Shown piece by piece: positions 1,423 through 37,784 of a stretch of DNA of 64,000 nucleotides (position 1 is the stretch's first letter; the number at the start of each line of letters is the position of its first letter). The DNA is from Trachythela sp. YZ-2020 (Eukaryota > Cnidaria > Anthozoa > Malacalcyonacea > Clavulariidae), in NCBI GenBank assembly GCA_016169945.1, contig JADLSH010000085.1, positions 806,001-870,000 on the forward strand, given 5' to 3'. The notes below the pieces were generated by a model, which saw nothing but the letters and a program-made list of their open reading frames with translations, did not search any database and was not told the origin of the DNA. The position numbers were made by a program, and so were the translations under genes.

Positions 1423-2418
1423 GTATACTTTATTTTTGTGAATATACATTAGTTTTAGTTTTAATTGACATATAAAAAACAAAAAATGAATATTTTCATA
1501 AATTTTTTAAAATATAATCAGGATTAACAAAAAATAACATTGTATGATTTTGATAGTTTCGAAAGTTTAAAAATAAGTTTGCAAACCAGTATAATTTATG
1601 TTGATCACTACTTTTTATATGCAACACAACATTATTACTATACAGGAATCACACCGAGAAATCAATTTTACCATTGAAAAACTGAGTTTTTCGAAATTAT
1701 TGATAAACCTGGTGTCCGTCATATATTTGTAATCTATGTTTGTAAAGTTAGTAATTTTAGTTATGTATGTTTGGTAATGCAAGAGCAAAGAGACAATGGA
1801 CAATGCAAGGTGGAGCTTCCAGGGGTACGATTTGTATTCATAGTTTTAAAGTATCGTGTATCATTCTGTGTATGTCCGTATGGTGAATCGCTGTGAAAAG
1901 TAGAACTTGCCTAGCAGACAGAATGCCAGGCAGTTAAAAAGCTAAATCTATGTCAATAAATGTATTTAAAGAAACGTGCGTCGTTGTGTCTTACTGATTG
2001 AGAAGTGTTTTATCGATAGTATACAGTCCCTACGAAGCACAACTGTCTTGCCGTGTAGAGGGAGACAGAAAAGTGCAACAGTATCCTTTGGTTACACCAC
2101 TAGTATGCTGTACTGATTTTAGTATTTACCTTTCACTAAATTAAGTTAGCAATATCCTACAGTATTATGATACAACATAACACACCAAATCCTGGTACAA
2201 TCTGTGCACTGGTATTATGTGGTACATTAGAGTTTGCTCCACAGAATGTTCAATTAAACAAAAATATTTAAGTCTATGAAATCTAGCCCCAAAACCCCCA
2301 GGAGGAAAAAATATATCGATAAACTATACTAAAAAATATTAAGAAGCCACATTATATATATTTGACAAAATATATGGAACATGTAAATTTTTGCGGTATT
2401 CTGTGGTACATACACCTG
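1255..2418. mobile_element. TA-flanked inverted-repeat element (Tc1/mariner-like MITE)
   Basis: The left end begins CAGGTGTACGTACCACAGAA just after TA (1253-1254). The right end is its reverse complement and is followed by TA (2419-2420). The inverted repeats are about 27 bp with few mismatches. A TA target duplication is the signature of the Tc1/mariner superfamily. The 1.16 kb interior has no transposase ORF, so the element is non-autonomous. The left terminus is tandemly duplicated (second start at 1339). Confidence 0.6.
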
Positions 2419-2426
2419 TAATCCCC

Positions 2427-4600
2427 CGTGCGAGGGTACTAATTCCGCTCGGAGATTTACACCCGGGTATGTGAAAACATTGTGAATGCAAAGTCGTCCG
2501 CCATTTGTTTTTGTCATGGACAGGACTGGACTGGACCTTTTCGTAAGTTATGCGCATGCGCAATTCAAGCCGAGAGAAGACTTCCATTTTGCAAACTTTT
2601 TTCAAAATTAGTTTTGCACTCATTTTATAAGTAAGTCTCTATCTCTCCAAAACAAGATGAATGAAAATTATTTAGAGGACAAATTAACAAGAGGAGAAAC
2701 AGTCGAAAGACCGAAAAAGGAGCGTTTTAAACAGGCAAGTGTCAATTTTCCATGCTTGCTTTGCCGATTTTTTAACATAGCATGCAGTATAGTTTGTGAA
2801 TTTGAAAATGTGTAGATCATTCTGTGTGGTCAATACACAGCAGCCCAAGCTCACATTGTTGCTATATTATTATTTTTTTTATTAATAATTTTTTATTATT
2901 GCTGTTTGTATGTTATGGTATATTATGTGTATAGTGTGTTATGTCTGTTATGTCATGTGCCAGAAATGGTATGATGGAATTAAATATATATTTATTATTG
3001 ATGGTTAGGGTACTTTATATTAGCAAATTATAGTAGACTTAATAGTCAAATATATATTGTAAAAAAATTGCTAAAATATTGTGTCAAATGAAGAAATAAA
3101 GTTACTTACTTCTACTACAAGTTGCAATCGACTCAGTTTCGGTGTTGACTTGGTGTGATTTTAAATCCACTTTGAGGGGAAAGTCACTCATGGTATTATA
3201 TGTAATATTAAGGAGAAGGCAGGTCAACGAACTCGCATCGGCATCGAATCGCCAAAAAAACAACAGATCCATAAAGCCCATTACATTTCCCATCACATTC
3301 ATCGTCTTCAGCAAACACAAGATCTAGAGATTTTTTGTCGGTGAAAATCCATAATTTGTTCGATTTTCTGACAATCTCAGGAAGCGTGGCTGTCGATACC
3401 CGGGGATATTCAGTTGAGAGCTCGCGAGTTCGAATTACACTCTCTATTGTTATTGGTTCATTACATTGTTGTCGCGTGAACGCGTTCGAATCAACCAATA
3501 ACAATAGAGAGTGTAATTCGAACTCGCGAGCTCTCAACTGAATATCCCCGGGTATCGACAGCCACGCTTCCTGAGATTGTCAGAAAATCGAACAAATTAT
3601 GGATTTTCACCGACAAAAAATCTCTTGTGTTTGCTGAAGACGATGAATGACTGAATGTGATGGGAAATGTAATGGGCTTTATGGATCTGGGTTTTTTTTT
3701 GCGATTCGATGCATTATTATGCGACGCGAGAAGGATTTGTGAAGCCGATGCGAGTTCGTTGGAGTTGTATTGACCTGCCTTCCCCTTATACTTACTATAC
3801 TTACTATGAGTGACTTTCCCCTCAAAGTGGAATTAAAATCACACCAAGTCAACACCGAAAAGTCGATTGCAACTTGTAGTAGAAGTAAGTAACTTTATTT
3901 CTTCATTTGACACAATATTTTAGTAATTTTTTGACAATATATATATTCGACTATTAAGTCTACTATAATTTTCTAATATAAAGTACCCTAACCATCAATA
4001 ATAAATATATATTTAATTCCATCATACCATTTCTGGCACATAGCATAACAGACATAACACATACACATAAAATACCATAACATACAAACAGCAATAATAA
4101 AAAATTAATATAGCAACAATGTGAGCTTGGGCTGCCTGTGGTCAATACAACATTGATTGATCTTTAAGAGTATTTTAGTATTGATTCAAATATGTTATAG
4201 AAAAATAAAAAAATATTAAATCTCAGAAACTTCATTGCAAAACAAGCAAGTGCGAAGTATAAAAATACTCCTCGAAAAGCAGTTGAAGTTTTTTGAAAAT
4301 TTCGAAACGTTTTGTGAACGTCTAAGGTTGAATGTTACAGTAAATCAAAGCTAAAAGAGTACACAATAGCATACCCACTTTATATAGTTGGACAATTGAT
4401 AATTTTATAGTTAAAAACAAAATATGATTTCGTACAAATTAAAATATAAAAAATATACAATGTTGCGTGTTACCATGGTTACTTACATTCGTCGACTCAG
4501 TACTTCATGTTACAATAACTTTTGGGGAGTAAATTGTTTGGTTCAAACTTAACTATGGTTAAAATGGGCGAGGGGTTACTGCATGCATGTATTTCTAGTA
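2427..4600. mobile_element. Interspersed element family A, copy 1 (contains a long hairpin)
   Basis: Three blocks (about 2427-2540, 2520-2705 and 4280-4600) are found in reverse orientation and colinear at 25258-25140, 24180-23985 and 23980-23675. The two copies therefore belong to one repeat family of unknown class. Relative to copy 2, this copy has an extra ~1.57 kb (about 2705-4280) that includes a long hairpin. A 52-codon ORF starts at 2657 in the shared part and is followed by a donor-like site. It has no recognisable family and could be an old captured exon. Outer ends and target duplications were not resolved. Confidence 0.65.
2824..4150. repeat. Long inverted repeat (foldback), arms ~640 bp
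   Basis: The left arm at about 2824-3458 is the reverse complement of the right arm at about 3493-4150, with a 34 nt loop at 3459-3492. Matching landmarks are the AACTCGCGAGCTC core near the centre and the CAGCCCAAGCTCACATTG outer region. The right arm carries small insertions (for example around 3715-3765), so the arms are not identical. There is no supported ORF. It resembles a foldback transposon or hairpin MITE inside family A. Confidence 0.85.
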
Positions 4601-9624: not shown

Positions 9625-10406
9625 ATCGCTACTTTGGCGAACTCTGCCACGATGATAGTTATGTCGAACCGACGCTCTCAATTATTGGTGATGAAGTAGA
9701 TATTCCTAGCTTCACGGAACAGCTGGTATGGAATGCCTTGAAAAGAATAAAGAGGACAGCAACAGGTCCCGATTATATTCCCTATTGGGTTTGGAATGAT
9801 CATGCGGAAATTCTAACCTAAGTTATAACTAACGTCTGGAATTTGTCCCTTTCATCACATACTTGGCCAGATTCATGGAAAAGAGCGAATATTAACCCTC
9901 TTGCAAAGGTTGATTTACCAAAGGAAGATGGTGACTTTCGTGGAATAAATATTACACCTGTAATTGCGAGGACCTTCGAAAAGCTCGTTTATAATAGTCA
10001 GGTCAAGTCGACAATTGAGGAAATTTTATCCCCAACGCAATTTGCGTACAGGCAGGGGGGAAGTTGTACAAACGCTCTGTTGACTATTCAGAACAAAGTA
10101 CTCAGCTTCTTAGATAGAGCGGACTGCAAAGCAGTTAGACTGTTTTCTATGGATTTTAGCAAGGCCTTCGACTCCGTGAAACATTCACTCCTCTCGGAAA
10201 AGTTAAAAAATGTGCCACTCAACCCTTATATCATAAATTGGTATTTAAATTTTCTAAAGAATAGAAAGCAAAGAGTCGTTTGTAACGATTTTTGTGGAGA
10301 ATGGATGGATGTTAATAAGGGTACAACACAGGGGAGCGTAAGTAGCCCCTACCTTTTTAATATTTTCCTGAATGATTTAGAGGTGGACATAGACGGCGAG
10401 AACGCT
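9600..10406 (+). pseudogene. LINE ORF2, segment 3: reverse transcriptase, N-terminal half
   Basis: RT motifs appear in order: an [10 protein letters not shown] block near 9760, [42 protein letters not shown] (motif A with the first catalytic Asp), LKNRKQRVV, and [19 protein letters not shown] (motif B). An in-frame stop (TAA near 9818) lies between the first two blocks. The reading frame is interrupted after AACGCT (10401-10406) by the giant foldback element, just before the YADD motif. Confidence 0.9.
10401..10406 (+). repeat. 6 bp target-site duplication, left (AACGCT)
   Basis: AACGCT directly precedes the element terminus AGTAGTAGTGTATG and recurs at 17802-17807 directly after the mirrored terminus. 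Only one copy fits the LINE reading frame. Confidence 0.9.
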
Positions 10407-10439
10407 AGTAGTAGTGTATGTGGTTTTCGACCCTTATTT

Positions 10440-10740
10440 TTAGGGGGGAGCAGGGGGGAGCAACGGGGGAGCACATCATTAAAAATTCAAACATCATTAG
10501 CATATGGTACATTAACATACAGGGGGGAGCAGCGTCATTAACAGGGGAGAGCAGCGTCATTAACAGGGGGGAGCACGTCATTAAAAATTCAAACATCATT
10601 AGCATATGGTACATTAACATACAGGGGGGAGCACGTCATTAACAGGGGGGAGCAGCGTCATTAACAGGGGGGAGCAGCGTCATTAACAGGGGGGGGGGAG
10701 CAGCGTCATTAACAGGGGGAGCACGTCATTAAAAATTCTT
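10440..10740. repeat. G-rich terminal minisatellite, left arm
   Basis: Tandem units of about 22 bp, consensus GGGGGGAGCAGCGTCATTAACA, interspersed with a longer unit ending in CATATGGTACATTAACATAC. Runs of up to nine G occur. The mirror array in the right arm (17480-17765) has a different unit order and number, so this is the fastest-changing part of the TIRs. Confidence 0.9.
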
Positions 10741-11639
10741 TAACATAAACATCATTATTTATGTATTGACGTCATGATGATATGCAATGCAAGTTTGGGC
10801 AAAACAGTCATTATGTTGAGTTCAGTATATTTTGTTGTCGCGAGATTTATAAACTCCTTCAATCTCGTATATAGTGAAGTATTTCTTTCTGAGTCGACCA
10901 ATACTAATAAGTTTTTAAGCGTTTATTTAGTAAAGCTTATACAAGTGAGATTTACAAACATTAAAGCGTTAGAAACATAAATATTTTGATGTTAAGTTAA
11001 ACTAAAGACACAATAGCTTAACTCATTAAAAGATTAAGTCAAAGGACTTGTTTGGGCGAAACAATCATTAAACTTAACCATCACAATAGCTAGACCTTTC
11101 CTATATATTTTATCAAACGTTGTGTTCCAAACACAGTCCGTTTCGACAACGAGTAAATATATTCTCGTATCTAATATCACCTTAAACAAGACGGCTTAGA
11201 TAACTAATATAGCGAAGCTTAACCTAGTAAAGTATTATGCGAAATAATAACAAGTAGAAATATAGCGTTCTAAAACGAGAAAAGTCTTATAGTCTAAGAG
11301 AGGTCTAAGATCTTATAGAGCAAGACAAATATATGTTTACCAAGCGGTTGTATAAACATAGTTCTTACAGGGATTTAAACCTTACAAAGTTTCAAGCGTT
11401 TTAGATGTAGCAGAGCGAAAAGCAGTGATTTTCAAGCGAGATTTACAAGCATATACAAACATTGTATATAAACATTTAGCGTTTGTTAGGTAATTACGGG
11501 CAATTAAGATTTTCTAGCTTAAACATTTGAATAAATTTAGAATATATTATTATAGCACGGGAAAATATTGTACAATGTACATACAACACACACAGAATTC
11601 GTTTAAAAACATATTCATTGCTTACAATTTCTTTTACAG

Positions 11640-11962
11640 CGTTAGTAAGGTCTGCTCCTAAGAGCATATTGTTTAGGTGTCTTTTGTATCTTTATTTTTT
11701 TTGTCTATTTTGGGGGATAATCTTGCAATTGCTAAATCTTAAGGTCTCCAATCTGAAAAGTCTACCCAATTAAATATATTTTTAACTAAGGTCTGCTCTG
11801 GGTCTGCTTCTAAGAACCTATTATTCTTAAACTCCATCACTCGCTTGGGAGTATACATTGTCCGAATCAACCTCATAGCTTTTTCACCTTTTAACCATAA
11901 CTTTACATTTATTTAACCCATACCGAGCAAGCATATCTCTGATATACTTGTTAACTAATCCA
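11640..11962 (-). pseudogene. Decayed ORF of unknown family, left-arm copy
   Basis: Mirror of 16246-16571 on the minus strand. See that entry for the translated features. It keeps the same internal stop codon as the right-arm copy. Confidence 0.35.
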
Positions 11963-11968
11963 ATTTCT

Positions 11969-12025
11969 ATGACTTATGACATATGACTTATGACTTATGA
12001 CTTATGACTTATGACTTATGACTAC
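11969..12025. repeat. ATGACTT heptamer array, left arm
   Basis: Seven to eight tandem copies of the heptamer TATGACT/ATGACTT with slight variation, mirrored at 16185-16245 in the right arm. It sits between the decayed ORF and the stem-loop units. Confidence 0.9.
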
Positions 12026-12191
12026 GACTATGACTAAGATTGAATCATTGAATCCTAAGAGATATTGTATGATCCCTTTCTCTAACCTTAACCCCAACCC
12101 TAACTCTGATACTTAAACCATTTTCATTGACCTCACAAAGTATAATTATACTGAAATCGAGAAATTAGCATATATCTTTTGATAATTTGGT

Positions 12192-12207
12192 GGCTCTGAA
12201 AAGAGCC
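12192..12207 (-). promoter_or_regulatory. Histone-type mRNA 3' stem-loop, left arm, distal copy
   Basis: On the minus strand this reads GGCTCTTTTCAGAGCC followed by ACCAAA. It is a 6 bp stem with a TTTC loop, identical to the core of the metazoan replication-dependent histone 3' end signal. It is the mirror of 16012-16027. Confidence 0.75.
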
Positions 12208-12398
12208 GGTTTGGTTGCGCTATGATATCTTAAGATACCATGTATGATATCCTAAAATGATATCTTAAGATACTGTATGATCCCTTTCTCTAACCTTAAC
12301 CCCAACCCTAACTCTGATACTTAAACCATTTTCATTGACCTCACAAAGTATAATTATACTGAAATCGAGAAATTCGCATATATCTTTGATAATTTGGT

Positions 12399-12414
12399 GG
12401 CTCTGAAAAGAGCC
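12399..12414 (-). promoter_or_regulatory. Histone-type mRNA 3' stem-loop, left arm, proximal copy
   Basis: The same 16 nt stem-loop on the minus strand, immediately downstream of the RING ORF remnant of the left arm. It is the mirror of 15804-15819. Confidence 0.75.
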
Positions 12415-12417
12415 GGT

Positions 12418-12918
12418 TTGGTTGCGCTATGCCTTTACAGACTTAGCCATATACAACCACAATAACCACATTGAAAATAAACAGACAAGGCGGTGTCTCC
12501 GACCCCATGTTGGACACTTTCAATACACGAAATGTGTACTCTTGAGTGACAACAAGAGGTGGTTTTGCTGTCTTGACTGTTTATTTTTTTCACGCAGAAC
12601 ATACAGTGGTGATCGAGCTGTAATGACTGCCTGCAAAGAGCACAGCGCGTAAGGAGCTTCCAGTCTCAGTTCTGTTCTCTATCTTCCATTTCCATCTCAG
12701 AAAGATGCGTTAGATCATCAACGTCGTTCCACAACGTTCCAATCTCTTCGAGGCAGAAATGACATTCCCCTTACCAATGATATGAAAAGTATCGACCAAT
12801 CTTCGCTTTTCTAATTCTTGCTCTGGCGATGGTAACGACTTCTTCATGGTCGATCCATTATTTTCACCGACACAGATTATCCTCAAACGCCGCCCTGATA
12901 GATCCATTATTTTCACCG
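12418..12918 (-). pseudogene. Double RING-type zinc-finger ORF, left-arm copy (broken)
   Basis: The minus strand carries the same C-terminal sequence as the right-arm copy: the last Cys pair of RING 1 and the whole second RING-like cluster. The region encoding the middle of the first RING (CCGHLCH in the right arm) is replaced by unrelated sequence at about 12655-12740, which introduces a stop codon. This copy therefore cannot make the complete protein. The two arms are not fully homogenised. Confidence 0.6.
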
Positions 12919-13204
12919 ACACAAGGACGTCCGCGGTTTAGAGAGTGTATGTTTTCAAATACTGCCTCTACAATTCCTAAAATGTGAATTCCAAAAAACT
13001 CTGTAGAAATCTTTACCTTGACAATGAGTCAACGTTTCTGTGTGGTCTATGGTTTGATTTTTTCCCATTCTGTTAAACACGCTATAACCTTACTATACAC
13101 TATATGTATTCATCTTTGCTATAATTTACCCACCCACAAAAATCGATTAGTCAATGATGATGTAGAATAAGGTTTGTCATTAGTAGAAATCAAAACTACG
13201 CATT

Positions 13205-13296
13205 TGCCAAGAGAGGGGTTCGAACCCTCGCGTGCTGAATGCACATTGGAACTTAAGTCCGATGAATGTATCAGCGTTAACAGGGACTCTCGGGTC
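13205..13296 (-). pseudogene. tRNA-Leu(UAA)-like sequence, left arm
   Basis: Mirror of 14895-14986. The minus strand has an anticodon loop CTTAAGT (anticodon complement at 13253-13255), a long variable arm and a canonical T arm GAGGG-TTCGAAC-CCCTC. The 5' acceptor half is not recognisable. Confidence 0.55.
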
Positions 13297-13824
13297 TATA
13301 AAAGTCCCGCCGGGACATAATTCAAAATGTCCCTGCGGGACTTTTTGTGTCCTGGGAGTCCCGATACGCAAGATTTCTGGGGTACTCTCCACCCAACGAT
13401 AATACACGCATGTGGTTTTGAAAATTTCTATTTTTTACACACACTTAAATATCTAAAGGAGTAGTGGAAACACCGTCCTCCAAAACTTTGTGTTTTGGAT
13501 AAAAATAACTAAAAGCTGGGCGTGTAAGGTATGCCCGACCAAGCATCGGGCCATCGGGCCTGATAGTGCATAATCGGGCCTGATAGTGCCTAATCTGGTA
13601 AAATCGGGCCTGTTCGTTCGGGCCATTATGAATTATGTATAAGCATAATTATAAAATGTTATGTTGTTCTTAAAATGAAACATTCACTGGTTAGCTTCGA
13701 TGAAGGTAGGAGCTATAGCTATCGCTTAATCGTTGGTTTAACATAAGAAGACGCGAAAGGAATACTATATACTCTGCGAGATCACAACTCAGCAGCAGAA
13801 TCTGACTCAGATCACAGTGTAGAG

Positions 13825-14363
13825 ATGGGTAGAAAAAGAAAGTACGTAGAGTCTGATGATGATACGTCAGAAAGCGATTTTAATAATTCAGATAATACAG
13901 ACAATGAAGTGGAAACTGATGCTACGCCAGAGAGTGATTTGGATAGTTTAGATAATACTGACAGTGAAGTAGATGGTGAATATGAAAGCGATCCATGGGC
14001 ACCTTTAAAAGAGGAAGCATCAAAACGAAATTTAGCAGAGTTCGAAGAGCTAACGCAGAACTTCACTGCAGATGGTCTTGCTGAAGAAGAAGCTAATAGT
14101 AAGGCGTATTTACTTATCCTACCAAAGCTTCGTGAAGATTTGCAAAATATTTATCTGGAACGTCTACTATGGATAAGAGAACTTAAGAGAGATGCAATAC
14201 ACAAAAGATTATGGAAACGAGGGATGCATTTGTGAACGATGATAACTTTGACCCTGAAGAAGCATTAGAGGCTGCTATTGATAAAAGAAAATTTCTTTTG
14301 AAAAGAATTTTCAAAGACCAACATTATCCTGATGCACACGAAAAGAGTGACAATGACTCTTAA
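13825..14363 (+). pseudogene. Central ORF: acidic N-terminus, helical charged C-terminus, one frameshift
   Basis: The only coding region in the unique centre. ATG at 13825 opens 136 codons. The start is basic (GRKRKY, a possible nuclear signal), followed by about 45 residues of Asp/Glu/Ser/Thr repeats, then a segment of likely helices with DPWAPLKEEA, EEEANSKAYLLILPKLREDL and YLERLLWIRELKRD. After a frameshift near 14210 the sequence continues as about 45 more residues (DPEEALEAAIDKRKFLLKRI) and stops at 14361-14363. An AATAAA follows at 14449. The general pattern resembles uncharacterised multicopy cnidarian proteins that I have seen, but I cannot name a family. A role in replication or structure is unproven. 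Confidence 0.55.
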
Positions 14364-14448
14364 TAAGTCTTGTACACGCTTAAATAAACTACCTATAAAC
14401 TGTATACTCTTAGAAGTATATTACCTTTACTTGTAAGTTCTAAATCGA

Positions 14449-14454
14449 AATAAA
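14449..14454 (+). terminator. Candidate polyadenylation signal for central ORF
   Basis: AATAAA about 86 nt after the stop of the central ORF. Unlike the RING ORF in the arms, the central ORF has a conventional poly(A) hexamer and no stem-loop. Confidence 0.4.
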
Positions 14455-14894
14455 TCTGTTTTCCAAAATATAATTCTCTGTTTTTTACTTTCTTCTCACA
14501 ACCTCAGAAATCTTGCGTATCGGGACTCCCAGGACACAAAAAGTCCCGCAGGGACATGGCCCGAACGAACAGGCCCGATTTTGCCCGATTTTACCCGATT
14601 AGGCACTATCAGGCCCGATTATGCACTATCAGGCCCGATGGCCCGATGCTTGGTCGGGCATACCTTACACGCCCAGCTTTTAGTTATTTTTATCCAAAAC
14701 ACAAAGTTTTGGAGGACGGTGTTTCCACTACTCCTTTAGATATTTAAGTGTGTGTAAAAAATAGAAATTTTCAAAACCACATGCGTGTATTATCGTTGGG
14801 TGGAGAGTACCCCAGAAATCTTGCGTATCGGGACTCCCAGGACACAAAAAGTCCCGCAGGGACATTTTGAATTATGTCCCAGCAGGACTTTTAT

Positions 14895-14986
14895 AGACCC
14901 GAGAGTCCTGTTAACGCTGATACATTCATCGGACTTAAGTTCCAATGTGCATTCAGCACGCGAGGGTTCGAACCCCTCTCTTGGCA
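14895..14986 (+). pseudogene. tRNA-Leu(UAA)-like sequence, right arm
   Basis: The 3' two-thirds match a leucine tRNA. The anticodon arm is TCGGA-CTTAAGT-TCCAA with anticodon TAA (14936-14938). It is followed by a type II variable arm (GTGC-ATTCA-GCAC), a perfect T arm GAGGG-TTCGAAC-CCCTC and a 3' acceptor strand ending TTGGCA. Upstream a D-arm-like CCGAG...GTTAACGC is present, but with extra bases before the anticodon arm, and the 5' acceptor strand (expected TGCCAAG) is missing. It is therefore probably a truncated or rearranged tRNA rather than a working one. The B box is intact. Confidence 0.6.
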
Positions 14987-15283
14987 AATGCGTAGTTTTG
15001 ATTTCTACTAATGACAAACCTTATTCTACATCATCATTGACTAATCGATTTTTGTGGGTGGGTAAATTATAGCAAAGATGAATACATATAGTGTATAGTA
15101 AGGTTATAGCGTGTTTAACAGAATGGGAAAAAATCAAACCATAGACCACACAGAAACGTTGACTCATTGTCAAGGTAAAGATTTCTACAGAGTTTTTTGG
15201 AATTCACATTTTAGGAATTGTAGAGGCAGTATTTGAAAACATACACTCTCTAAACCGCGGACGTCCTTGTGTCGGTGAAAATA

Positions 15284-15783
15284 ATGGATCTATCAGGGCG
15301 GCGTTTGAGGATAATCTGTGTCGGTGAAAATAATGGATCGACCATGGAAGAGGTTGGTCAGTTACCATCGCCAGAGCAAGAATTAGAAAAGCGAAGATTG
15401 GTCGATACTTTTGGTATCATTGGTAAGGGGAATGTCATTTCTGCCTCGAAGAGATCCGTTGTGGAACGACGATGATCGTAACGACGCCTTGTTGTGGACA
15501 TCTTTGCCACAGCTGGTGTCTGGCTAGATGGAAAATAGAGGCCTTCTCGAGAACTGGAGAGCTCCTTACGCGCTGTGCTCTTTGCAGGCAGTCATTACAG
15601 CTCGATCACCACTGTATGTTCTGCGTGAAAAAAATAAACAGTCAAGACAGCAAAACCACCTCTTGTTGTCACTCAAGAGTACACATTTCGTGTATTGAAA
15701 GTGTCCAACATGGGGTCGGAGACACCGCCTTGTCTGTTTATTTTCAATGTGGTTATTGTGGTTGTATATGGCTAAGTCTGTAA
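15284..15783 (+). pseudogene. Double RING-type zinc-finger ORF, right arm (one frameshift)
   Basis: ATG at 15284 opens an acidic/basic N-terminal region. The sequence continues in a second frame from about 15427. That frame has RING-H2 spacing: C-x2-C (CHFC), about 14 residues, C-x-H-x2-H-x2-C within CCGHLCHSWC, then C-x2-C (CALC). A second similar cluster follows at once: C-x2-C (CMFC), CCHSRVHISC, and C-x2-C (CGYC). Such clusters usually act as E3 ubiquitin ligases or protein-binding modules. A single-base loss at the GGGG near 15428, shared with the left arm, separates the two frames. A GTAAGG donor-like site at the same place makes an intron an alternative. The stop at 15781-15783 lies 21 nt before a histone-type stem-loop. 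A 49 bp tandem duplication (GTGTCGGTGAAAATAATGG) covers the start codon. Confidence 0.65.
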
Positions 15784-15803
15784 AGGCATAGCGCAACCAA
15801 ACC

Positions 15804-15819
15804 GGCTCTTTTCAGAGCC
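15804..15819 (+). promoter_or_regulatory. Histone-type mRNA 3' stem-loop, right arm, proximal copy
   Basis: GGCTCTTTTCAGAGCC: 6 bp stem, TTTC loop, preceded by CCAAACC and followed by ACCAAA. The metazoan histone consensus is GGYYYT-TTHA/C-ARRRCC with ACCA downstream. SLBP and U7 snRNP act on such sites to make non-polyadenylated ends. A purine-rich CAAAAGATA about 9 nt later resembles the downstream U7-pairing element. The site is 21 nt after the RING ORF stop codon and is in the sense orientation (the loop would be GAAA if antisense). Confidence 0.8.
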
Positions 15820-16011
15820 ACCAAATTATCAAAAGATATATGCGAATTTCTCGATTTCAGTATAATTATACTTTGTGAGGTCAATGAAAATGGTTTAAGT
15901 ATCAGAGTTAGGGTTGGGGTTAAGGTTAGAGAAAGGGATCATACAGTATCTTAAGATATCATTTTAGGATATCATACATGGTATCTTAAGATATCATAGC
16001 GCAACCAAACC

Positions 16012-16027
16012 GGCTCTTTTCAGAGCC
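16012..16027 (+). promoter_or_regulatory. Histone-type mRNA 3' stem-loop, right arm, distal copy
   Basis: An identical second stem-loop 208 nt downstream of the first. It lies in a tandem ~200 bp unit that also repeats the CATAGCGCAACCAAACC leader and the following TTATCAAAAGATATATG, TATAATTATACTTTGTGAGG and AGGGTTGGGGTTAAGG segments. Confidence 0.75.
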
Positions 16028-16184
16028 ACCAAATTATCAAAAGATATATGCTAATTTCTCGATTTCAGTATAATTATACTTTGTGAGGTCAATGAAAATG
16101 GTTTAAGTATCAGAGTTAGGGTTGGGGTTAAGGTTAGAGAAAGGGATCATACAATATCTCTTAGGATTCAATGATTCAATCTTA

Positions 16185-16245
16185 GTCATAGTCGTAGTCA
16201 TAAGTCATAAGTCATAAGTCATAAGTCATAAGTCATAAGTCATAG
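16185..16245. repeat. Heptamer array (AAGTCAT), right arm
   Basis: Tandem TAAGTCA heptamers, mirror of 11969-12025. Confidence 0.9.
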
Positions 16246-16571
16246 AAATTGGATTAGTTAACAAGTATATCAGAGATATGCTTGCTCGGTATGGGTTAAA
16301 TAAATGTAAAGTTATGGTTAAAAGGTGAAAAAGCTATGAGGTTGATTCGGACAATGTATACTCCCAAGCGAGTGATGGAGTTTAAGAATAATAGGTTCTT
16401 AGAAGCAGACCCAGAGCAGACCTTAGTTAAAAATATATTTAATTGGGTAGACTTTTCAGATTGGAGACCTTAAGATTTAGCAATTGCAAGATTATCCCCC
16501 AAAATAGACAAAAAAAAAATAAAGATACAAAAGACACCTAAACAATATGCTCTTAGGAGCAGACCTTACTA
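16246..16571 (+). pseudogene. Decayed ORF of unknown family, right-arm copy
   Basis: After the heptamer array, conceptual translation in two adjacent frames looks protein-like: a segment with LVNKYIRDMLARYG, a frameshift near 16310, then RTMYTPKRVMEF and VKNIFNWVDFSDW, an in-frame stop, then a basic tail (PKIDKKKIKIQKTPKQYALR). No family is recognised. The composition suggests an old coding region carried by the element, but chance translation of AT-rich DNA cannot be excluded. Confidence 0.35.
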
Positions 16572-17479
16572 ACGCTGTAAAAGAAATTGTAAGCAATGAA
16601 TATGTTTTTAAACGAATTCTGTGTGTGTTGTATGTACATTGTACAATATTTTCCCGTGCTATAATAATATATTCTAAATTTATTCAAATGTTTAAGCTAG
16701 AAAAACTTAATTGCCCGTAATTACCTAACAAACGCTAAATGTTTATATACAATGTTTGTATATGCTTGTAAATCTCGCTTAAAAATTACTGCTTTTCCCG
16801 CTCTGCTACATCTAAAACGCTTGAAACTTTGTAAGGTTTAAATCCCTGTAAGAACTATGTTTATACAACCGCTTGGTAAACATATATTTGTCTTGCTCTA
16901 TAAGATCTTAGACCTCTCTTAGACTATAAGACTTTTCTCGTTTTAGAACGCTATATTTCTACTTGTTATTATTTCGCATAATACTTTACAAGGTTAAGCT
17001 TCGCTATATTAGTTATCTAAGCCGTCTTGTTTAAGGTGATATTAGATACGATAATATATTTACTCGTTGTCGAAACGGACTGTGTTTGGAACACAACGTT
17101 TGATAAAATATATAGGAAAGGTCTAGCTATTGTGATGGTTAAGTTTAATGATTGTTTCGCCCAAACAAGTCTTTTGACTTAATCTTTTAATGAGTTAAGC
17201 TATTGTGTCTTTAGTTTAACTTAACGTCAAAATATTTATGTTTCTAACGCTTTAATGTTTGTAAATCTCACTTGTATAAGCTTTACTAAATAAACGCTTA
17301 AAAACTTATTAGTATTGGTCGACTCAGAAAGAAATACTTCACTATATACGAGATTGAAGGAGTTTATAAATCTCGCGACAACAAAATATACTGAACTCAA
17401 CATAATGACTGTTTTGCCCAAACTTGCATTGTATATCATCATGACGTCAATACATAAATAATGATGTTTATGTTAAAAA

Positions 17480-17765
17480 TTTTTTAATGACGTGCTCCCC
17501 CTGTTAATGACGCTGCTCCCCCCCTGTTAATGACGCTGCTCCCCCCTGTTAATGACGCTGCTCCCCCCCTGTTAATGACGCTGCTCCCCCCTGTTAATAT
17601 GCCATATATGTTAATGATTTGAATAATTTTAATGACGTGCTCCCCTGTTAATGACGCTGCTCCCCTGTTAATGACGCTGCTTCCCCTCTATGTTAATATA
17701 CCATATGCTAATGATGTTTGAATTTTTAATGATGTGCTCCCCCCTTGCTCCCCCCTGCTCCCCCC
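17480..17765. repeat. C-rich terminal minisatellite, right arm
   Basis: Tandem copies of TGTTAATGACGCTGCTCCCCCC, the complement of the left-arm array but with different copy order. It includes degraded units around 17595-17700 (AATGATTTGAATAATTTTAATG). Confidence 0.9.
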
Positions 17766-17807
17766 TAAAAATAAGGGTCGAAAACCACATACACTACTAC
17801 TAACGCT

Positions 17808-32510: not shown

Positions 32511-32720
32511 TAGACACAGTAATAACGTGTTATTTTATTAAGTTTGTGTATAATGCTTATAGAAAGGCCAAAACACTAGTCTGACTACAGTTGTTTCAAA
32601 TTCTTATGTAACTCTCATGATCCGTCAAACGAGCAAAACTCTCATCAACTCTCATCGTTGATAAGAGCGCATGAGAGCCGATGAGAGTTGGTTGTCAAAA
32701 TAATGCAGGTAAGAGTTACA

Positions 32721-32946
32721 ACTCTCATCAACTCTCATCAACTCTCATCAACTCTCATCAACTCTCATCAACTCTCATCAACTCTCATCAACTCTCATCA
32801 ACTCTCATCAACTCTCATCAACTCTCATCAACTCTCATCAACTCTCATCAACTCTCATCAACTCTCATCAACTCTCATCAACTCTCATCAACTCTCATCA
32901 ACTCTCATCAACTCTCATCAACTCTCATCAACTCTCATCAACTCTC
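32721..32946. repeat. 10 bp minisatellite (ACTCTCATCA)n
   Basis: Twenty-two exact tandem copies of ACTCTCATCA plus a partial one, with diverged copies upstream at 32635-32690. All three forward frames are open through it, giving artificial repeats such as STLINSHQLS. No gene is inferred. The related word GAGAATGAGAGTTGG occurs at 30562, on the far side of the LINE. Confidence 0.95.
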
Positions 32947-36665: not shown

Positions 36666-37736
36666 TTAACCTTCGATGACATTGCCGTTAAGACATCGAG
36701 GTAAGTAAGTTTGCATGTGCCTGAACCACGCATTGCATTTTCTGATTGTTATTGTATCCATGTGCCGTTCAGCAGCAGCTACCAAAACTCTTTTCCTGTA
36801 TTCCCCTAACGGAATACGTTCTTGACGCGCCATGACTCTGTTATTCATCTCCAATTGGATTTCAGGTCGTGAAATATCGTTTTTGATTGCGGCTTTCAAC
36901 GCACTTATGGCATTCTCGACGATGTTGAGAAAAGGGGAATATGGTGGTAGCATCCGTAGCGAGATTTCTTCAGCAGGACTTACAGCTCCCCGATGAGCTG
37001 GTGCACCGTCATAAATAAAAACCGTCTCGTTACCCGCCACATTTTGAGCACATTCATCTAGAAATAACTGAAACCGATCTCTGTTTGTGCCTCCTATGTG
37101 CATTGAGTGATGCACAAGGCCAAATGTGGAAGAAACTGCAAGAATAATGCTGATGTTGCGTCCTTTTTGTCCTGACACTTGGCGATATGCTCTATCTCCT
37201 CGAAGGGCTCTGCCTTGACTCCTCGCCGTCCAGACATTAAAACCGCATTCGTCAATAAACACGATTTGCCTCTGGATCGCTTCTCCCAAAAACCACGCTG
37301 CATAATCGCGTCTGCTTTGGATCACGTCAGGTCTGTTTCTTTCTGCAGGGCATCGCCGAACAAGTTTGAATGTGTATAGCATACCATTCAATACCTTTCC
37401 AACTGTCCGTGAATGTATTCGGGGCTTATCAGGCAATCTTTCCTGAAGCAATCGGTTTATGCCATCAAGTGTGAGAACAGGGTTCTCGTTCAGAATTTCT
37501 TCAATGCATTGCTTCATTTCATCATCAACTTTCCTGTGGTTGGGGCCGCCTCGTGGTCTTTCAGCTATCTGTCCTTCTTGCAAATGTCGTCTGACTATCC
37601 CTCTCGCTGTCGAGCGGTTAACGCTGATGGTATCAGCAACAGAAAGATAATCTTGGGCTGGATCATTGAATGCTCTTATCAAGCACTCTCTATTTTCCAA
37701 ACTCACACGTTGTCGTCTAGGTCTTGCTACCATCAT
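36666..37736 (-). CDS. IS630/Tc1/mariner-superfamily transposase, DD30E spacing
   Basis: 356 residues from ATG at 37736. The nearest upstream in-frame alternative is a TTG, so the ATG pair at 37736/37733 is preferred. N-terminal helix-turn-helix region: SVADTISVNRSTARGIVRRHL. Catalytic DDE core: FIDECGFN (Asp ~162), FIYDGAPAHR (Asp ~243), PPYSPFLNIVEN (Glu ~274). Thirty residues separate the second Asp and the Glu, shorter than the 34 of Tc1. The family is seen in cnidarian genomes, from memory, as IS630-like proteins. It cuts and pastes the element at TA sites in the nucleus. No frameshift or missing catalytic residue. The promoter must lie within the ~195 bp between the start and the right end. 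Confidence 0.92.
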   Translation of the reverse strand: MMVARPRRQRVSLENRECLIRAFNDPAQDYLSVADTISVNRSTARGIVRRHLQEGQIAERPRGGPNHRKVDDEMKQCIEEILNENPVLTLDGINRLLQERLPDKPRIHSRTVGKVLNGMLYTFKLVRRCPAERNRPDVIQSRRDYAAWFLGEAIQRQIVFIDECGFNVWTARSQGRALRGDRAYRQVSGQKGRNISIILAVSSTFGLVHHSMHIGGTNRDRFQLFLDECAQNVAGNETVFIYDGAPAHRGAVSPAEEISLRMLPPYSPFLNIVENAISALKAAIKNDISRPEIQLEMNNRVMARQERIPLGEYRKRVLVAAAERHMDTITIRKCNAWFRHMQTYLPRCLNGNVIEG

Positions 37737-37784
37737 GTACAATATTGTATGTTAACTTTGACGAAGTACTCAATTTTTGGAGCG

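Follow-up and report, generated by a model that had tools for sequence, protein, structure and literature searches.

The window, by which we mean the whole stretch of DNA that was analysed (64 kb), contains a palindromic repeat element with a RING gene and histone-type stem-loops on each arm (Table 1). The element is a near-perfect palindrome, the arms of which are nearly identical except for approximately 220 bp in the RING gene and a unique centre. Arm-to-arm difference is strong, and includes indels, precisely in the RING core (12659–12741 versus 15456–15559). The insertion site is a LINE-type reverse-transcriptase ORF, the right-hand continuation of which was judged by eye. Both ends could be located in six of 26 copies (the window copy and those at loci L011–L035), and all six are flanked by a perfect 6-bp target-site duplication, each of different sequence. 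The 6-bp duplication, the (AGT)n//(ACT)n ends and the terminal inverted repeats are features of Maverick/Polinton elements. Only two ORFs of at least 100 aa lie wholly inside the window element, and neither is one of the Maverick/Polinton core genes (protein-primed DNA polymerase, integrase, ATPase, capsid); the element is therefore a non-autonomous derivative at most.

Table 1. Positions of the element and its features in the window. Strands and supporting evidence are given where available.
Feature	Position	Strand	Evidence or remark
Whole palindromic Maverick-type element, 7,395 bp, (AGT)3...(ACT)3 ends	10407..17801	.	
Left target-site duplication AACGCT	10401..10406	.	
Right target-site duplication AACGCT	17802..17807	.	
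AAAAGA after left-arm stem-loop 2	12175..12180	-	minus-strand reading and Rfam alignments
Histone-type stem-loop 2, left arm	12192..12207	-	pattern search and Rfam
Histone-type stem-loop 1, left arm	12399..12414	-	pattern search and Rfam
Mirror RING gene, interrupted by stops	12428..12780	-	approximate limits
Central acidic ORF of an unnamed 171–174 aa family	13825..14235	+	shortened here by a frame change
Open frame with complete RING-H2 motif and second Cys-rich half	15433..15783	+	ATG-started ORF 15472–15783
Two tandem units, one stem-loop each	15787..16159	+	165 nt aligned, 208-nt spacing
Histone-type stem-loop 1, right arm	15804..15819	+	pattern search and Rfam
AAAAGA, U7-site-like, +12..+17 after stem-loop 1	15831..15836	+	
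Histone-type stem-loop 2, right arm (tandem 208-nt unit)	16012..16027	+	pattern search and Rfam
AAAAGA after stem-loop 2	16039..16044	+	

The central acidic ORF belongs to a protein family that is present in 24 of the 27 sequences searched; 82 of 103 candidate relatives were found at E≤0.01, a few of them named from Paramuricea clavata. By eye, positions 14920–14990 (+) and their mirror 13200–13275 (-) resemble the 3′ half of a Leu/Ser-type tRNA. No tRNA was called by ARAGORN in the window, or in the element with introns allowed, and none by Rfam at either place; the 30 low-scoring candidates from a relaxed-score ARAGORN run were taken as noise. Elsewhere the window encodes a GPCR 86% identical to a GPCR of Dendronephthya gigantea, which places the host among the octocorals. 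It also has a perfect 10-bp tandem repeat, CAACTCTCAT, in 22.8 copies at 32719–32946. A DDE_3 transposase ORF at 36666–37742 (-), which we take to be Tc1/mariner-like, is unrelated to the stem-loops.

The stem-loop GGCTCTTTTCAGAGCC is present in four exact copies in the window, with no further match at up to three mismatches, whereas shuffled sequence gave a mean of 0.22 matches and reached four in none of 100 shuffles. A sequence-only reading of this DNA had placed the stem-loop, followed by ACCA, twice in the right arm and twice in the mirror arm. All four coordinates proved exact, and ACCA directly follows each copy; the spacing of 208 nt it gave for the right arm is likewise correct, and the corresponding distance on the minus strand is 207 nt. 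It had also proposed a scan with the Rfam Histone3 covariance model (RF00032), which all four copies pass (38.2, 38.2, 38.2 and 36.5 bits, gathering cut-off 34; E 1.3e-7 to 5.4e-7 for 64 kb against 4227 families). The alignments span all 46 model positions, including the A/C-rich 5′ flank, ACCA and the stretch beyond. The signal in the window comprises an A/C-rich 5′ flank, a 6-bp stem, a U-rich tetraloop, ACCA and a downstream AAAAGA. The stem-loop had been described as identical to the metazoan histone core; it matches 15 of the 16 bases of the Rfam consensus, but has the loop UUUC rather than UUUA. Many other copies of the element have a single unit in place of the tandem pair. A degenerate telomere-like TTAGGGTTGGGGTTAAGGTTAG lies within the 208-nt unit at 15905–15935 and 16113–16143. 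When the element was rescanned alone with relaxed Rfam limits, no further family scored above its own gathering score.

The gene upstream of this signal encodes a RING-type protein and not a histone, as a replication-dependent histone gene would. Its stop codon (TAA, 15781–15783) lies 20 nt before stem-loop 1, in line with the earlier description of the stem-loops as following a double RING ORF; that ORF is, however, broken in the window, in both arms, and the right-arm ATG at 15472 falls inside the first RING, with the frame upstream closed. Across the 49 arms examined, the stop is 20 nt before the stem-loop in 40. The RING frame has at least 150 open codons in 27 arms, 21 of which have an ATG at the 150-codon point; it is these 21 of the 49 that hold an intact ATG-started 150-codon ORF with its stop 20 nt before the stem-loop. 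Among 20 distinct ATG-started ORFs pN was 0.021 and pS 0.052, a ratio of 0.41; the ratio had been 0.74 on 26 distinct frames, from which six with no ATG at the start (rearranged or shifted) were dropped. On these figures, the RING gene looks to be under constraint. The only Pfam match in the frame upstream of the stem-loop is RING (zf-RING_2), with 19.7 bits for the window frame and 22.4 for an intact copy at locus L032, below the cut-off of 27.3. A protein search with the RING ORF gave no candidate.

To survey the copies in the host genome (578 Mb), the 9 + 9 bases flanking the stem-loop were fixed, its 16 positions were left free and at most one mismatch was allowed. This pattern occurs at 101 places, compared with 10 for the reversed control. 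Of 100 places listed, 95 match all 18 flank bases exactly, and in these the stem-loop is unchanged in 90 and has a single change in five; the five with one flank mismatch comprise four intact stem-loops and one unrelated sequence. Leaving out the latter, the 99 places form 48 clusters (10-kb limit), 36 of which point outward (-...+) and 12 of which are one-sided. Every opposite-strand pair within 10 kb (56/56) has the order -...+, with the stem-loops sense to the outward RING gene. Loci L011–L035 contain 57 Histone3 matches (18 + 39).

A search of the host genome with the Histone3 model gave at least 75 matches above the cut-off, all 75 of the scored ones among 109,016 candidates, and the element's own copies were not among the matches listed. 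From those listed, 14 stretches were read. One of them, L047, is a histone H4 gene, in which GGCTCTTTTAAGAGCC lies 34 nt after the stop and is followed by ACCAAATCTTTCAAAAGAATATG. Its stem-loop is the same as that of the element except for one loop base (UUUA in H4, UUUC in the element), and ACCA is present in both. We regard L047 as a built-in positive control.

Three further stretches, L044, L045 and L050, hold RING-type genes with a stem-loop 15, 23 and 18 nt after the stop, respectively. Their proteins aligned to the element RING with scores of 127, 114 and 113, against shuffle maxima of 50, 53 and 51 (300 shuffles each); with Pfam zf-RING_2, L044 passes (28.8 bits) while L045 (22.1) and L050 (16.2) fall below 27.3. 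Over the 187 coding nt that precede the 3′ UTR, identity to the element is 45.6–50.5%, where shuffled sequences gave means of 45.5–46.5% and maxima of 49.7–52.0%, and yet 15 of 16 stem-loop bases agree with the element in each of the three. As far as these alignments go, the signal has been kept behind RING genes so diverged that their upstream coding DNA is saturated. The clearest example is L050, the protein of which aligns to the last residue; in L044 and L045 the alignment takes in only the first RING and the beginning of the second half, and the sequence immediately before their stop codons may therefore be non-homologous.

The purine-rich, U7-like element that had been noted downstream of the stem-loops fared unevenly. 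AAAAGA follows three of the window stem-loops (Table 1), and left-arm stem-loop 1 is followed by AAAGA, one A shorter. In the host H4 gene AAAAGA lies at +13..+18, one base from its position in the window. We tabulated 17 signals (the two right-arm window copies, the 14 loci and L032:619), and in 15 of them an AAA+GA core starts at +11..+13 (+12 in the window, +13 in H4), while the core is absent from L044 and L032:619. The chance of such a core at a given position is 0.7%, or 1.0% in AT-rich stretches. Pairing with a human U7 5′ end did not support it: the duplex energies were -4.4 and -5.4 kcal, and 83% and 68% of element windows pair at least as well. The Rfam U7 model found no match in the genome and none in the controls either, and so says nothing about a host U7. 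The spacing in H4 answers the U7 point better than the human duplex, which failed, and we treat AAAAGA as a putative U7 site.

The signal also follows genes of other kinds. Six of the 14 stretches (L037, L038, L040, L041, L042 and L049) contain a gene ending ...YWREDRL with the stem-loop 69–78 nt after its stop. Pfam placed this gene in no known family; three of the six ORFs start MECLHGKP, like the GRF zinc-finger genes beside the element family. At L039 an ORF ending ...RDFDTSLL stops 28 nt before the stem-loop, and at L032:614–660 a different histone stem-loop, GGTTCTTTTAAGAACC (34.8 bits), lies 19 nt after an ORF ending ...NFDTSLLE. No recognised ORF precedes the stem-loop at L043, L046 or L048. 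Genome-wide, at least 16 pairs of Histone3 matches point inward (+...-), 0.9 to 13.7 kb apart and with equal scores at both places in 14 of 16 (for example C384:2380648/2383897, C89:385155/390072 and C50:829244/837629), in contrast to the window element, the pairs of which point outward. These inward pairs suggest that one or more additional repeat families have 3′ ends of the histone type. Chance resemblance to a histone signal was considered and rejected on the strength of the shuffles, the Rfam scores, the genome copies and the genome-wide Histone3 matches.

Some members of the family carry further genes. GRF-like stretches are present in 21 of the 27 sequences searched; in L026, three tandem GRF zinc-finger ORFs (2064–4402), two of which were Pfam-scanned, separate the stem-loop from the element end. 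In L032, a longer relative, a Maverick-like left end is accompanied by the RING gene and its stem-loop, by a GRF gene, by an LRR-like ORF (weak, below the cut-off) and, near the far end, by a fragment resembling a packaging ATPase (Pox_A32, 19.1 bits, E 9.5e-4, cut-off 22.8). A further fragment of L032 is B-family polymerase-like by eye alone (MDTDSAY), Pfam giving no polymerase. An ORF at L032:6459–6887 is weakly Bcl-2-like (E 0.013, below the cut-off). In L036, the contig neighbour of L032, the RING gene and its stem-loop recur on the other arm. These gene contents are suggestive of a link between the element family and autonomous elements, but are not proof of one.

Conservation of the stem-loop among the element's own copies had been put forward as a test, random substitutions in the 16 nt being taken to refute the idea. 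Although the stem-loop is unchanged in 90 of the 95 exact-flank copies, its rate of change is about that of the downstream flank, and the test decides nothing. Parsimony was applied to 68 copies of the stem-loop at 26 loci (64 identified via flanks and four via stem-loop similarity). The number of changes per site was 0.31 for the stem-loop, 0.38 at +20..+40 and 0.41 at +41..+165, and 98 of 300 16-nt windows were as quiet as the stem-loop. Columns upstream of the stem-loop were more variable (0.8–1.3 changes per site) and were left out because they are mixed with non-homologous sequence before second stem-loops. Among the 21 intact copies the stem-loop had 0.125, third codon positions 0.153 and the sequence further downstream 0.070. 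We therefore rejected within-family conservation as proof of selection: the rate equals that just downstream and is not clearly below that of third codon positions. The family is young, and the comparison does not demonstrate selection on the stem-loop. Two RING subfamilies (17 and four intact copies) have eight fixed differences in the ORF and none in the stem-loop or its flanks, numbers too few to decide. Compensatory changes in the stem, which it had been proposed to look for, were not seen within the family, and among L011–L036 the only stem with a swapped base pair is that at L032:619.

We consider it probable that this is a non-autonomous palindromic Maverick/Polinton-type octocoral element, the RING mRNA of which ends by host histone-type processing. 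Such processing of an element gene, as first suggested from the sequence, is well supported at the sequence level, although the substitution test on the element's own copies does not decide it. We favour it because of the parts of the signal, the 20-nt distance from the stop of an intact ORF in 21 of 49 arms and the persistence of the signal behind diverged genes. Animals have both SLBP and the U7 snRNP, and histone pre-mRNA is cut 4–5 nt after the stem. Host SLBP would bind the stem-loop of the RING pre-mRNA and the U7 snRNP would bind AAAAGA, the cut falling after ACCA, a few nt past the stem. The RING mRNA would then be exported and translated with no poly(A) tail, and it would be restricted to S phase, when DNA replicates and histone mRNA is stable. 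Its product is presumably an E3 ligase that may act on the cell cycle or on host defence, and S-phase timing could be useful to an element that needs its own DNA replicated.

The same signal might instead be a captured host 3′ end, whether of a histone gene or of a host RING gene already ending in this way, carried along unused. Capture is known in such elements, and captured rRNA pieces are treated as probably non-functional in the portion of PMC12220804 consulted; moreover, the host H4 3′ end is very similar, L044, L045 and L050 could be host genes, and within the family conservation of the stem-loop does not exceed that of the flank downstream of it. Against this, Pfam shows RING only, and no histone, in the upstream frame, and in 40 of 49 arms the signal stands 20 nt after the gene that belongs to the element itself. 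The diverged RING genes keep the signal despite saturated coding DNA, and other repeat genes carry it too. In our view an unused passenger is distinctly unlikely.

Ordinary polyadenylation is possible, as the sense strand has AATAAA at 16299, 16518 and 17289; one of these might provide the normal end, with the stem-loop giving a second end in S phase only, in the manner of histone mRNAs with dual ends. The part of PMC9756948 available describes such a histone gene, with ends of both types. However, the number of AATAAA motifs in the window is close to the chance expectation (170 against 163 on shuffles), and the nearest lies 480 nt past stem-loop 1 and 272 nt past stem-loop 2, so that we hold a fallback role for the stem-loop to be not very likely. 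A role as a DNA hairpin, in recombination, as a cruciform or as a replication signal in the palindrome, would make the histone likeness coincidental. The location in a giant inverted repeat and the tandem duplication would suit it, but the likeness reaches past the hairpin to the A/C flank, ACCA and an AAAAGA near the H4 spacing, all 56 opposite-strand pairs are sense to the outward RING gene, the Rfam E value is 1.3e-7 and similar signals follow other genes. This we think highly improbable. Returning to histone-type processing, and extending it beyond the RING gene, we lean slightly towards the view that Maverick-type elements, possibly octocoral proviruses, adopted histone 3′ processing for the RING gene and at least one or two others, which would yield poly(A)-less, S-phase-restricted mRNAs.

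The histone field regards the stem-loop ending as confined, in animals, to histone genes. If the proposal is true, poly(A)-less S-phase mRNAs from non-histone genes would break this rule; the Maverick element itself is of a known kind, and it is the 3′ end that would be new for non-histone animal genes if confirmed by RNA. The element would test how far SLBP and U7 serve other genes, and would suggest a way for a self-replicating element to tie its expression to S phase. The stem-loop also offers a searchable mark for further such elements. Outside the host, the stem-loop pattern occurs at two places in viral contigs, neither with an Rfam match; in the same contigs the element-end pattern was not found, and queries with the RING, central-ORF, A1 and polymerase-like sequences gave no confirmed relative. 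Prokaryote genome contigs likewise gave no confirmed relative and phage records no match. Among the best-ranked matches in open-licence literature, as far as their accessible text goes, histone stem-loops in Mavericks were not found beyond a count in PMC12220804, and the excerpt of PMC6303110 names histone mRNA as the only known metazoan coding mRNA ended by a stem-loop.

It is useful to set the element beside the systems that it most resembles. Giant-palindrome or foldback elements presumably share its very long inverted arms and the short tandem repeats near its ends, but the ends and target duplication of the window element are of Maverick type. Vertebrate Mavericks, as described in the part of PMC8097293 consulted, have 6-bp target duplications and (AGT)2//(ACT)2 ends, and have in common with the element the 6-bp duplications, the (AGT)n//(ACT)n ends and long terminal inverted repeats. 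The element differs in being 7.4 kb long, mostly palindrome and devoid of polymerase, integrase and capsid genes, and in its histone-type 3′ ends, of which that part of PMC8097293 makes no mention. In the corresponding portion of PMC12220804, six ‘histone 3′UTR stem-loop’ matches are counted in a collection of PLVs and virophages, which thus also includes Polinton-like elements with Rfam histone stem-loops; those are protist elements, and the matches, none of which is in a cryptophyte PLV as that text words it, are counted with neither placement nor interpretation. With metazoan replication-dependent histone 3′ ends (RF00032) the element shares the stem-loop, the A/C-rich 5′ flank, ACCA and the downstream purine element, whereas its upstream gene is a RING-H2 gene and its loop is UUUC, where that of the host H4 is UUUA.
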